Shown piece by piece: positions 3,001 through 48,475 of a DNA stretch of 48,644 nt (position 1 is its first letter; each line of letters opens with the position of its first letter). This DNA comes from Saccoglossus kowalevskii (lineage: Eukaryota; Hemichordata; Enteropneusta; Harrimaniidae): assembly GCF_000003605.2 (NCBI RefSeq), contig NW_003128862.1, positions 984,770 to 1,033,413 on the forward strand, read 5' to 3'. The notes below the pieces were generated by a model that did not search any database, was not told where the DNA came from, and saw nothing but the letters and a program-made list of their open reading frames with translations. Position numbers and translations under genes: made by a program.

Positions 3001-5870
3001 GCTATGTAATCTAAACAGTAGTAGCAATTATTATTATGACAAGGCATTTCCCGTGTGGAATATATTGTTATGTTCAACAGCACCCCTAGTTCATGATGTA
3101 AAGCAAAATATTTACTTTTTTACTACTTAATTACAGTTTGGTTTGCGCTGACTATTGAAACTATATTAAGCATTAATTGTTCAGAAGTATATATTTTCTT
3201 CATTATAAAAAAATGCAAGACCTTGTAACAGTTGACAAGGCCTTTGATGTCGAAAACAACTTAATGCATGTACAACGATCAGTCCCATAGAAGCATGCGA
3301 AAGACAATGTGGCGAAAAAATGCAAGCAACGCCTTGAACGTACAGAATATTACGTCTACGTATTTTTCTAGTACGATCAACTAGGATTCAGATGTGAGTA
3401 GATTGAGATGGTCTGGTTTATTCAATTTATGTGCGAAATATCTTGAAATTATATAAATGCCGTGAGGCTTTCGATTGTGTGATAGCGTAGTGCGTGAGAC
3501 AAATTAATTTCGGTGTAGTGTTTCAAGCGCAAAAACAATCAGCCTGGGTAATGCTTTTGAAATGAACATCATTCATTCCTTACATAATGTATTTTGATTG
3601 TGTTAACACATATGTGGTACACGTTCCATATTTGTGCAATAAAAGATACATTCTTTTTCGTATTAAAAAATGTCTCGAGTTTTGTATTAGACTACCACAA
3701 TTCACAATAAACTACTAGTATGATAGATATTATATTGCAGATAACATTCCAAAGTGTTGCAAACGCAATATAGATAGGTGACGATAGGCAGACTGTGGCC
3801 TTCCCCAAATTAAACACCCGACTATGCTAAATCAGGTTAGATGGGTTTATTTCAACGAACGAACAGCTCCCAATTCGTAAACTCCTCAATCACTCGTATA
3901 AATTTAAGTTGAACTGTTCAAACCAATTCGTCTAATTACATGGCTATTTCACGTGTCCATTGCCAACAATGTATTACAAACGGTCGTGACGGATGGGAAA
4001 TGTGGCTAATTTAAAATGCTCCTTCCATTCAACATGTTGAATCGGAATTATTAGATAATGAGATTTGGCTGATAAATTGACTTTCCTAATTGTGTATTGA
4101 CAAGGCTCATCTATACCATCAGAGTTGTTTTATGAGGACTGATTAGATTATCAATTGCCTTGTTTAAATAAATCATGAAAATCTAATTATTTAACAAAAC
4201 TCGATCTGCTCTTTGTTCTTGACATTTGCCGAATCATAGATTTCATAGTGAAGCCCAAACGTTCTAATTTAAAGAAACTTCGCTCACATTTCGGGTTAGA
4301 TCCCTGACATATTACACGTGTTGGTGAATCAGTGGTCAATTTGACAACAAGATTGTCAAAAGTCACAGAATTCAGCAGTAGCGTACAGTGGTAGTACAAA
4401 TAGACATACTGTTCATATGCTATTCGTTTCATGGAAGTACTTTAACTTATTATGCATGTGTTTTAATTGATGTCAAAACAAAATTCGTTTAACTCTAAAA
4501 TATTGTCTGAAAACATCTCAATTTATTGTGTTCAGAGGCAGACACAAAAACCATTACTTAAAGTAGCGACATCGTGATTTTTTTTGTTTTCATTGCTCTA
4601 TTTTGCGAGTTCATCTAGAATTTATTTAACAAAAAAGTGCCTGCCGAAACACAAGGAAACATTATCTTCATATATAATACAGCGAACGACGGACTTGAGG
4701 ATAGGCTTGAGTATATTTTATCTAGTCATTGTAATTCGGGGGTCCATAGCACGTTATTTGAAGAGGTGACTGTGGTGTTTTGAAATACGCGTCTGCTGAC
4801 AGTGACAGAGTTTGGAACCTGTGTGGCGTGATGTTTTGCAAGTTCACTTAGTACTTGTAGTTTAATTTCATGAATGGCCTTGATATAAAAATAGCACATC
4901 TAATATAACGAAAAAACGAGCGTGTCGAGTGTGTAAATACCGTTGTTTTTGCTTCTGAATGTAATAGGCTACCACTGAAACAGATCGCCAGATTTCCTCT
5001 ATTTTATAATATCGTAAAAATGGTATTTTAAGACACAAATGTACGGTCACTGCGCTTAGTAATCCACTTTTCACACAGAACATTTGTCAAACATCCATGA
5101 AATCGTAGAATACTTCACTATCGTGACAATGTCATTGTATTTAGCAACATATGGTGGAAACAACATGTTTATCATAAAATCATATGATGAGTACAAGTGA
5201 TTGTCATGAACTATTAGAAAAAGCTGGTGATTCATATTTAAAAGAAACAGAATAATAGTGTGACATTTTCTCCTCAAATGTGAGCGCAGGCTCATTCGAT
5301 CCCATGTGTGCACAATGGCATTCATATCCCATAGAGCTACAAACTGTATACGTGACACATACTTATCTGTGGTAAGTAGATACACTTAAAAAACGTACGC
5401 ACATATTCGACCGAATTGTTTATAAACTATTGAAGATAAGTATATAACATATATATTATTTGAAACGCCGTGATTTGAACTATCGTGAAATAGTATCAAA
5501 TAGATAATGATAAATAACTGGGACTTGCATTTTAAATTTAGATTTGACTTTTTTTCACATCACTCATAATATTGTTTTCTCTATTACATGCTACAACTGG
5601 TTTGTGCAAACTGGTTAATAACAAATAGATTTTGTTTATTATGTGACAAGTTTGAAAATCATGAAGAAATCTACTCTAAGTACTATTATTTATGTATGCC
5701 CATTTAGCAGTGCCAGTACTTATCAAAGTAATGTGTCAATATTGAAAAACTAAAATCTTTATTGAAAGTGTTTTCGACTGTACATGTAGAACGATGATTC
5801 ATGGGCAGAATGTTACTGAAAGTAAAACGATAATAAAGGCGCGCCATGTTAGTGTATTATTTCTAACTAA
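1..5870. other. No gene recognised
   Basis: AT-rich, apparently single-copy DNA. Short frames are chance-length. It holds an imperfect hairpin around 1606-1651 (TAGTTC-AATACC-GAACTA core inside GGACATGG/CCGTGTCC), one TGACGTCA (2561-2568) and a TATA-to-AATAAA pair (3452 and 3639) without a supported transcript. Confidence 0.7.
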
Positions 5871-42355: not shown

Positions 42356-42557
42356 AAGTTGATAATAAAAAAAACTCTATGTCGTATTTTGTTTTTAAGC
42401 CCGTTATTTCATTCAACCATATCACTGAGGTAGTGAAGTAATCCGAAAGCAATATTTGATGGCGTGAGAAATAAATCGATTGTCTCTTTTATTGCACGCA
42501 TGATTTCCTACTATCCATATTGAGAGGGATTGCTCTGGAACAGCATTAATTATAACA

Positions 42558-43115
42558 AATTGGCCATCGGTCCGCCATTTTGAATACATCTATAACATGA
42601 TGTATAATGAAAATATAAAATTTTAATATGATCAGTCAAAGAATGTCACGGATAAAACAAAATTGCCGCCAGTCAGCCATTTCGAATCAGACCTGAAAAA
42701 TAAAATGACATGCACGCGAAACTCATAATGTCTAAACTATGTACCTAGTTTGTACAAAATCCATGTATAAACGCAAAGATCCGGTTCCGGAATGCCAGAA
42801 ATGCTTTGTTTTTGATGATTTGTTAGCACTAAAATGGCCGTCATTTGTCCATTTTCTATCAGATAGTCAAACCAATATATTTGTATATCTATGTCATGAT
42901 GTATAATGAATACATTATATATGAAATTTAAACATAGTCATGGCAGAGATATAATGGCACTATAACTGCATTCATTCAAATAAAATAGCCGCCAGTCGTC
43001 CAGTTTAAATCGGACTTGAACAATAAAATGACATGTATCAAGGTACCATAATGCCCAACGTATGTACTATGTTTGAACAAAATCCATCCATAAATGCTTG
43101 ATTTTGATCTGATTG
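42558..43115 (-). repeat. ATGGCC-family array, minus orientation, older copy
   Basis: The same A/B monomers appear as reverse complement. Dyad cores lie at 42562-42581, 42664-42682, 42834-42855 and 42986-43004. Recognisable blocks are catgatgtataatgaa, (g)tttgaacaaaatccat and gtctaaactatgta. Spacing is irregular (about 100, 170 and 152 bp) and divergence is higher than in the 47.6-48.5 kb array, so it is a decayed relative. Confidence 0.85.
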
Positions 43116-43166
43116 TGACACAAATTAATGTACATATGTATAATATCATGAATGTGTGAACACACG

Positions 43167-46537: not shown

Positions 46538-47292
46538 CGAGCCATGTCTTTACATTTTAGAAGGTAGCTAGTTGGTGACATGAAAAATGTAAATTGCATT
46601 CATATCACGAATGATGACATCATATTGTTAAATACGATTGTTTCCAAAATCATGATTTTTTGTGATGTAATTGGAATTAAATCACTGGGATTTTCCGCAT
46701 TTTATTTAAGTGTATTATTTAAGTACAATCGTCTTGTATTTCTATTTAAATTATTATACACTCAGAGTTATAATGAAAATTTAGTAGAAAATATAAGTTG
46801 TTGCTAGTTAACTGTTCTACACCTTACTGCATAAAATGAATATAGGTAAGCAAGCGTACATGAATAATCCGTCGCCAGTCTGTTACTAAACAGTTGGTCA
46901 ATTAGACCCAGTATTAAACTATGTTCAGCTTTATATACCCTCCATCTGTGTCCGACTAGTAATATAAAAACTGCTGACGCCATGCAAATGAAACATTCAT
47001 ATAATCTGATTCAATTAATTATTTTCTTAGTATTAAATATCAAAATATAAACACGATGTATGTGCTCAACAAAATACTACAATAGCTTTACAGCCGCATA
47101 GTTAAATAAGTACTTGTGTATGCGTGGTTCTACACACATTTTGCAAGAATGAATGTGTCTCAAATCTATCCATGACGAAGTTCTCGATTGACTGTAATGT
47201 GGCTATACTTAACTTCAGCAATAAGTGTTCTAGTTTAATCACATGCATTTCAACATTGGTCAATGGAATGAAAATAGATATCAGACGTATAT

Positions 47293-47422
47293 GGCCGCAG
47301 AGATCTCGTTGAGAGCAAGGGGACTACGTGATTTCGTTATGGTATTAGGGACAGTACACGTGATGACGAGAAACAATCCGCAGAAAGACAAGTCTCGTGC
47401 TTTCAACGAGATCTCGGAGGCC
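47293..47422. mobile_element. Foldback/MITE-like element, ~130 bp
   Basis: The left arm 47293-47316 (GGCCGCAGAGATCTCGTTGA..) is the near-perfect reverse complement of the right arm 47399-47422 (..TCAACGAGATCTCGGAGGCC). The dyad makes both strands encode similar short peptides (EISL.AR.L / NEIS.A), which explains the two overlapping open frames. No target duplication is evident. Confidence 0.65.
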
Positions 47423-47467
47423 GTTAGCTGTGTCGGGGATTGACGGATTTCAACTTTACAAGTTTTT

Positions 47468-47502
47468 AGTCCCCGTTCGGACGCAGTCCGAAAACGGGGA
47501 CT
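47468..47502. repeat. Strong hairpin at the head of the 150-bp repeat array
   Basis: AGTCCCCGTT.CGGAC-GCA-GTCCG.AAAACGGGGACT folds into a stem of about 15 bp with a 2-nt bulge and a 3-nt loop. It is followed immediately by the GTGCGTGC microsatellite and the tandem array, suggesting it is the terminus of one composite repetitive element. Confidence 0.8.
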
Positions 47503-47516
47503 TATGTTTTGACTTC

Positions 47517-47560
47517 TGTGTGTCTGTGCGTGCGTCAGTGCGTGCGTCTGTGCGTGCGTC
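47517..47560 (+). repeat. GTGCGTGCGTC-type minisatellite
   Basis: Three imperfect copies of a ~14-bp unit (tctgtgcgtgcg / tcagtgcgtgcg / tctgtgcgtgcg) lie between the hairpin and the 150-bp repeats. Confidence 0.85.
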
Positions 47561-47564
47561 CGGA

Positions 47565-48475
47565 CCTGTATCTTAGAAATGCCTGTACCAATCACAATCA
47601 AATTTCACACATACATCATACATGATATTATACATATGCACTTCAATTTGTTTCACAATCTAATATAAGATGGCCGAATGGCGGCCATTTTTGTGCTAAC
47701 AAATCCTAAAAATCAACCATTTCTCGGCTGTTTACAGATGGATTTTGTTCAAACTTGGTATATACATTAGACATTATGGGCATTGATGCAAATAATTTTG
47801 TTTTCTAGATAAGATTCAAAATGGCCGACTGGCGGCCATTTTGTATTAATAAATGTGGTTCTCGTGCCATATCTCTGACTTGCTTTCACTGATTATGTTA
47901 ACATTTTAAATATTCATTATACATCATGTCATAGATAGACAGATATATTGATTTGACGATAATATTCAAAATGGCCAAATGGTGGCCTTTTTTGTGCTAA
48001 ACAATCATCAAATATCAAGCATTTCTGGCAGTTATGGATGGATTTCGTTCAAACTAGGTACTTATATTAGACATTACAGGTTCCTGGTGCACATCGTTCA
48101 TTTTTCAGATCATATTCAAAATGGCTGTTTGGCTGCCATTTTGTTTCAATGAATGGGCTTCTAGACCCATATCTCCAACTTGTTTTGACTGATTATATTT
48201 TCAAATTTTAAATATTCATTACACATCATGTCATAGATAAACAGATATATTGGTTTGACTATCCTATTCAAAATGGCCGAATAGTGGTCATTTATGTGCT
48301 AAAAATCATCAAATATCAAGCATTTATTGGTGGATTTCGTTCAAACTTGGTACATACATTAGACATTACGGGTTCCTGATGCTCATTTTATTTTTCAGAT
48401 TGGATTCAAAATGGCTGACTGGCGGCCATTTTGTTTTAATGATTGGGCTTCTAGAGCCATATCTCTTAAATGCTT
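47565..48475 (+). repeat. Tandem array of ~150-bp monomers arranged as ~300-bp dimers (ATGGCC family, plus orientation)
   Basis: Each monomer opens with a dyad of the form ATGGCCG(N)2-4TGGCGGCCATTTTG. The starts are at 47670, 47821, 47971, 48121, 48273 and 48411. Monomers alternate between type A (..atcaaatatcaagcatttct..ggatttcgttcaaac..acattagacatta) and type B (..gggcttctagacccatatct..tttaaatattcattacacatcatgtcatagat). This makes a higher-order ABABAB array with a 300-bp period. The last monomer fades out near 48475. It is non-coding. Confidence 0.93.

Follow-up and report, generated by a model that had tools for sequence, protein, structure and literature searches.

The hairpin, minisatellite and tandem repeats at positions 47468-48475 of the window, that is, of the whole 48,644-nt stretch of the Saccoglossus kowalevskii contig NW_003128862.1 analysed here, in all probability represent an incomplete copy, with no 3' end, from a family of non-autonomous Helentrons (HINEs). 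The members of this family are small gene-less mobile elements, of which the genome holds roughly a thousand copies. We regard this HINE family as new in the sense that no printed match was found, the known relatives having been compared by description only. It adds to the known HINEs a high-copy, fairly young family whose ends are clear and for which empty sites and sister families can be pointed to.

A composite of hairpin, GTGCGTGC minisatellite and A-B-A-B-A-B array had originally been predicted for this interval, and the fold, TRF and the monomer annotation all agree that it is present. The family features of the window are the following:

47468..47502, plus strand: left (5') terminus, a hairpin with a T-run just before it (basis: boundary in oriented copies, genome matches and fold)
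47468-47477, plus strand: 10-nt subterminal inverted repeat (subTIR) AGTCCCCGTT, with its complementary inverted repeat (IR) at 47493-47502, 15 nt apart
47518..47560, plus strand: GTGCGTGC/GTGCGTCT minisatellite, of varying length among copies (basis: TRF and copy comparison)
~47550..47667, plus strand: b0, a truncated, diverged B-like monomer without dyad head (nhmmer: positions 31-148 of the B profile)
47670..47820, plus strand: monomer A1, with the dyad ATGGCCG...CGGCCAT
47821..47970, plus strand: monomer B1, which passes the strict dyad pattern
47971..48120, plus strand: monomer A2, dyad decayed
48121..48272, plus strand: monomer B2, dyad decayed
48273..48410, plus strand: monomer A3, 138 bp, dyad decayed
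48411..48475, plus strand: monomer B3, beginning only; the likeness to other copies ends by 48475
42514..43154, minus strand: second, older, end-less copy of the family (blastn of the L016 element against the window; about 68-78% identity in the main aligned blocks)

The left hairpin is 35 nt long, consists of the arms AGTCCCCGTT and AACGGGGACT together with an inner stem, and folds at -15.3 kcal/mol as DNA, which is equalled by 0 of 200 shuffles. TRF assigns the minisatellite at 47518-47560 a period of 12 with 3.6 copies and 90% matches, and the array at 47670-48465 a period of 300 with 2.7 copies, 81% matches and a score of 1003, in line with the true 300-bp higher-order period that had been proposed; monomers 1, 3 and 5 of the window array are of type A and monomers 2, 4 and 6 of type B. 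The proposal that a dyad heads every monomer holds in its strict form for three of the six (A1, B1 and B3) and fails for A2, B2 and A3, where the dyad is decayed. The order of minisatellite and array was likewise given correctly, with the amendment that the stretch between the minisatellite and the first dyad is itself a B-like monomer, b0. No stop-to-stop frame of at least 90 aa lies wholly within 47468-48475; a 107-aa frame on the minus strand (47281-47604) overlaps the start of the element. Position 48475 is the latest stop of the top alignments to other copies and not a natural end of the element. The window copy is without the remainder of B3, the roughly 125-bp 3' segment and the right terminus that are seen in other copies, and directly past the window end the assembly contains 1246 N (genome 1033414-1034659). 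The older copy at 42514..43154 lies at a distance of about 4.3 kb, is oriented the other way round and is an array without recognisable ends. Apart from these family copies, an inverted repeat of 130 bp (window 47293-47422; 25-nt arms, 88% complementary, 80 nt between them) stops 45 bp upstream of the element.

The genome searched comprises 572 Mb in 4830 contigs. A search with the 1008-bp sequence produced 3719 candidates; 40 of these were scored, and a set of 20 from among the best, to which the window copy belongs, was extracted with about 2 kb on each side. The top alignment begins at the hairpin in 12 of the 19 other copies and extends more than 13 bp to the left of it in none (0/19), and the hairpin does act as the marker of one end that it had been supposed to be, forming the left boundary in oriented copies. 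It can be recognised by eye in three more of the 19 and is broken, shortened or missing in the rest. Whether a second conserved end exists beyond 48.5 kb had been raised as a question; such an end, ...ATCTTAAATTTGATAACTAACGGGGACTGTGCCATGCATGGCTTGT, is present in 17 of the 19 other copies (L024 and L027 are without a right end), about 250 bp beyond the point that matches 48475. This right terminus is made up of the initial 10 nt in inverted form (AACGGGGACT), the palindrome GCCATGCATGGC and TTGT. SubTIRs are found at both ends, AGTCCCCGTT at the left and AACGGGGACT at the right, the right end being known from other copies and absent from the window copy. The 3' palindrome GCCATGCATGGC is no more stable than shuffled sequence (80 of 200 shuffles fold as well), and covariation in the left hairpin is not significant across 36 copies, with 4 compensated cells against a shuffle mean of 1.95 and a maximum of 7. 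Genome-wide, the left-end 36-mer has 1398 matches with at most 3 mismatches and the right-end 28-mer 963 matches with at most 2, the reversed control giving 0 in either case. Among 47 distinct right ends in the loci examined, 31 pair with a left end no more than 2.3 kb away, and the length of these 31 paired elements ranges from 641 to 1837 bp. Nine complete elements diverge from the majority sequence by 2.4-6.0%, from which we conclude that the family is fairly young.

Insertion at a fixed dinucleotide had also been raised as a question, and the elements do sit in T-runs: TT precedes AGTCCCC in all 31 paired elements (window background 0.106; p about 5e-31). On the right, T follows TTGT in 37 of 47 ends (window background 0.318; p about 5e-11), the flank starting with another base in the remaining 10. 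Paralogues of another repeat served as empty sites. At L052, five paralogues could be aligned (83-96.5% identical), and each is one T shorter than the two flanks put together; at L037, one of four aligned copies displays a plain one-T gap and three have a shorter T-run combined with base changes; and at L028, which lies in a sister array, the difference amounts to one or two Ts. The empty sites of L052, L037 and L028 thus gave no sign of a duplication, except perhaps of a single T. Insertion occurs within T-runs with one extra T, where a 1-bp T duplication is indistinguishable from a terminal T of the element. A T-rich interspersed repeat distinct from the family was noted at L014:223-393 and in L026, L029, L036, L037 and L052, and the elements of L026, L036, L037 and L052 appear to be inserted in copies of it.

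In order to describe the internal structure of the family, monomers were annotated by nhmmer in 40 elements or part elements, the order classes being those assigned by the present authors. The predicted ABABAB order describes the largest class only: b0 A1 B1 A2 B2 A3 B3 occurs in 16 of the 40 elements, the window copy included, and other orders occur in 24, namely b0 A1' A1 B1 A2/3 B3 (b0-A-A-B-A-B) in 9 and longer, shorter or broken arrays in 15. Between elements, A and B monomers are 54-59% identical, whereas A compared with A and B compared with B are 79-94% identical (means over 25 elements). This larger divergence between A and B than within either type indicates that dimerisation preceded growth of the array, as had been suggested. 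When the same place in the array is compared between elements, monomers share 92-95% identity in the main order class (16 elements) and 91-94% in the second, while monomers of the same type at different positions of one element reach 80-90% and 80-87%, respectively; the least distinct pair is A2 and A3 (90%; main order class), and b0 is 95% identical across copies of the main order class. As same-position identity exceeds identity within an element, the order was inherited by copying of whole elements, and the ordered array, as judged from these identities, predates dispersal of the family. It provides a clear case in which the order of satellite-like monomers was fixed before dispersal, and the position-specific monomers make it possible to separate inherited array structure from later gain or loss of dimers, copy by copy. 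Extra internal units of the A2B2 type are found in the longer arrays of L021 and L028 and, less cleanly, of L020. Among 14 typed elements b0 is first in all and B3 last in 12; the edge monomers are kept in most copies, and length shifts mainly via the internal A2B2 dimer. It is conceivable, but in our estimation rather unlikely, that the array is a conserved module and not a passive passenger, with its edge monomers, or else the dyad phasing, serving replication or strand transfer.

Short arrays with a 150/300-bp period resemble fragments of a satellite, and the window copy at 42.5-43.2 kb is an array without recognisable ends, so that one might see in these loci an ordinary satellite whose scattered arrays lie beside hairpins by chance. 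The association of ends and array makes this highly improbable. Thirty loci were chosen by their exact right end alone, and 22 of them are free of N in the tested stretch; the eight left out comprise six with N nearby and no left end, L055, in which both ends are present with N inside, and L056, which is situated at the end of a contig. Of the 22 gap-free loci, 17 retain the left hairpin (at most 7 mismatches) and 21 show three or more monomer matches, counting partial ones, which bears out the expectation that hairpin and array would co-occur elsewhere. The left end is missing in five of the 22 (L029, L030, L036, L046 and L050), indicating that damage is common. Moreover, array and ends share one strand in the 40 elements analysed, that strand alone having been searched; the arrays are short, with no more than 11 monomer matches per element; and the monomers are position-specific and not homogenised. 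A mobile element, and not local amplification of arrays, would then account for a large part of the dispersal of this satellite-like DNA.

Two other kinds of mobile element come into consideration besides a HINE. Because the first 10 nt reappear in inverted form close to the right terminus and the left end pairs with itself, the copies could be taken for MITEs, DNA transposons of the terminal-inverted-repeat or foldback type that a cut-and-paste transposase mobilises, a reading to which we give hardly any credence. The right inverted repeat is not terminal but is followed by 18 nt, and the ends are asymmetric. A longer target duplication is usual in MITE-type elements, whereas the empty sites here differ by about one T, without such a duplication. 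Pearl elements were originally called MITEs as well but, according to the account in PMC7492417, were later re-categorised as non-autonomous Helentrons. A canonical Helitron, with Rep-Hel and no endonuclease, in place of a Helentron derivative would equally explain the rolling-circle logic, the 3' palindrome and the lack of a target duplication, which are described as common to Helitrons and Helentrons (PMC4067079). The same source gives a 5' TC and 3' CTRR, a target between A and T, and subTIRs as features by which the two are distinguished. The family has neither a 5' TC nor a 3' CTRR, its ends being AGTCCCC and TTGT, its targets lie in T-runs and not between A and T, and subTIRs are present, which leaves only a very slight chance for a canonical Helitron.

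The pearl elements of Crassostrea virginica reportedly go back to work by Gaffney in 2003. In support of the assignment to the HINEs, the family shares with them the absence of coding capacity, subTIRs at two ends, an IR by the 5' subTIR, a minisatellite with tandem repeats, and TT or T-rich insertion without target-site duplication, a possible single T aside; a microsatellite and central tandem repeats are, as far as the descriptions go, frequent in HINEs and not obligatory. In layout, in target preference and in the lack of a duplication, the family agrees with the descriptions of HINEs (Thomas et al., 2014; PMC4067079) and of the Cg_HINEs of Crassostrea gigas (Vojvoda Zeljko et al., 2020; PMC7492417). 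Likeness to the latter, as described, extends to the 5' subTIR, complementary IR and microsatellite-like segment, to the 3' subTIR, 3' palindrome and T-rich insertion without target duplication, to the repeat array (repeats of mostly 140-180 bp in Cg_HINEs), and to the existence of families with common flanks and different repeats and with no autonomous partner linked. The authors of that study could not relate the autonomous elements of C. gigas to the Cg_HINEs (PMC7492417). In contrast to the Cg_HINEs as described, two monomer types alternate here within one array and their positions are recognisable across copies; in Cg_HINE_10_13, two related arrays succeed one another in blocks, unlike the A/B alternation (PMC7492417). 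For the same species, most of eleven inspected satellite-like repeats are described as mainly Helitron-associated (PMC8268682).

The short array is also reminiscent, by description, of the pearl elements CvA, CvE and CvG, which carry up to six repeats of about 160 bp (PMC7492417, PMC11136912) and which PMC7492417 places among the non-autonomous Helentrons; the resemblance to Helitron- and pearl-type elements put forward in the original prediction thus holds for the architecture. With DINE-1 and HINE-Mo the family shares subTIRs, central repeats, a 3' stem-loop, a TT target and variable terminal Ts, and with DINE-1 additionally an IR near the 5' subTIR and a microsatellite, in the description of PMC4067079. 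It departs from the mite HINEs described there in that the 3' subTIR lies 18 nt from the 3' terminus (roughly 38-60 in mites) and the palindrome 4 nt from it (8-35 in mites), and from DINE-1 and HINE-Mo in that no autonomous partner is shown here. A literature search with the short end sequences returned no transposon paper, judged by title, among the matches listed, and for dimeric or higher-order Helitron repeats there was no obvious parallel among the matches listed, judged by titles and the starts of abstracts.

The genome encodes predicted Helentron proteins. On C2261, a coding Helentron comprises, in open stretches, a Helitron_like_N domain (Rep), followed by PIF1 and then by an endonuclease/exonuclease/phosphatase domain. 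Its Rep lies in a stop-to-stop frame of 977 aa and carries the motif VEFQQCGSPHTH (GSPH) with FYR before it, which appears in keeping with the Helentron signature as given in PMC4067079. Neither family end occurs on the coding strand of this Helentron (10.1 kb); one 10-mer upstream of Rep is a single mismatch away from the subTIR and is without a hairpin. The C2261 Rep has 26 genome matches, which group into 13 loci, and the partner search covered these loci except C167, C2719 (two), C689, C1855 and C994. No family end was found in parts of the coding loci C1479, C2224 and C4131, in 3-kb pieces round the Rep matches of C3364, C651, C238 and C1873:16 kb, or, at stricter thresholds, in 3-kb pieces at C3452 and C2109. 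A left-end match on C689 precedes a piece of Rep by 5.8 kb on the same strand. Among the coding loci examined, none is an autonomous Helentron with both family ends.

One decayed Helentron coding locus, C1873 (69-74 kb), has an exact family right end about 3 kb past a helicase remnant, and the last 54-68 bp of this end are 91-94% identical to two elements. Given 963 right ends, the chance expectation for one within 5 kb of the 13 loci is about 0.05, the case having been noticed by comparing the Rep matches with the first 100 of the 963. There is no left end within 12.2 kb, and other sequence lies between the helicase remnant and the right end. Sequence related to the stretch before this right end is found also at C3051, C2268 and C2916, which are absent from the matches of the Helentron protein search, and at C3051 the reading frame continues past the point where the family 3' end starts in C1873. 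C1873 is regarded as a lead and not as a link to an autonomous partner. The decayed coding-like sequence between a Helentron helicase remnant and the family right end (L069:6600-8386), which has its relatives at C3051, C2268 and C2916, gave no Pfam hit for the three short frames scanned in that region.

In the HINE family, a full element begins after a flanking T with AGTCCCCGTTCGGACGCAGTCCGAAAACGGGGACT (subTIR and IR hairpin) and runs through minisatellite, partial monomer and ordered A/B array into a 3' segment roughly 125 bp long, closing with AACGGGGACT (the inverted subTIR), the palindrome GCCATGCATGGC and TTGT, followed by a flanking T. We infer that the Rep-helicase of an autonomous Helentron would recognise the hairpin/subTIR ends and nick one strand, that rolling-circle replication would copy the element and halt at the 3' palindrome, and that the copied element would be joined into a T-rich site. 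The array would be copied along in order, and unequal exchange or slippage among the nearly identical 300-bp units may occasionally add or remove an internal A2B2 dimer.

The family has relatives within the same genome. At L022:879-1942 lies a complete sister HINE that shares the 3' subTIR and, almost unchanged, the 5' end; its repeats are different and form a 280-bp repeating unit with minisatellite sequence inside, and its 3' palindrome GTCATTttcAATGAC differs from GCCATGCATGGC and still pairs. Sister monomers bear only a distant resemblance to the A and B profiles, somewhat closer in the case of B. Apparent remnants of other sister elements are present in L028, L046 and L004/L012, and copies of the family are nested in related arrays in L028 and probably in L017. 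Near the nested HINE copies of L028, at 4563-5570, there is in addition a 59-bp tandem repeat of 17 copies with 94% matches.
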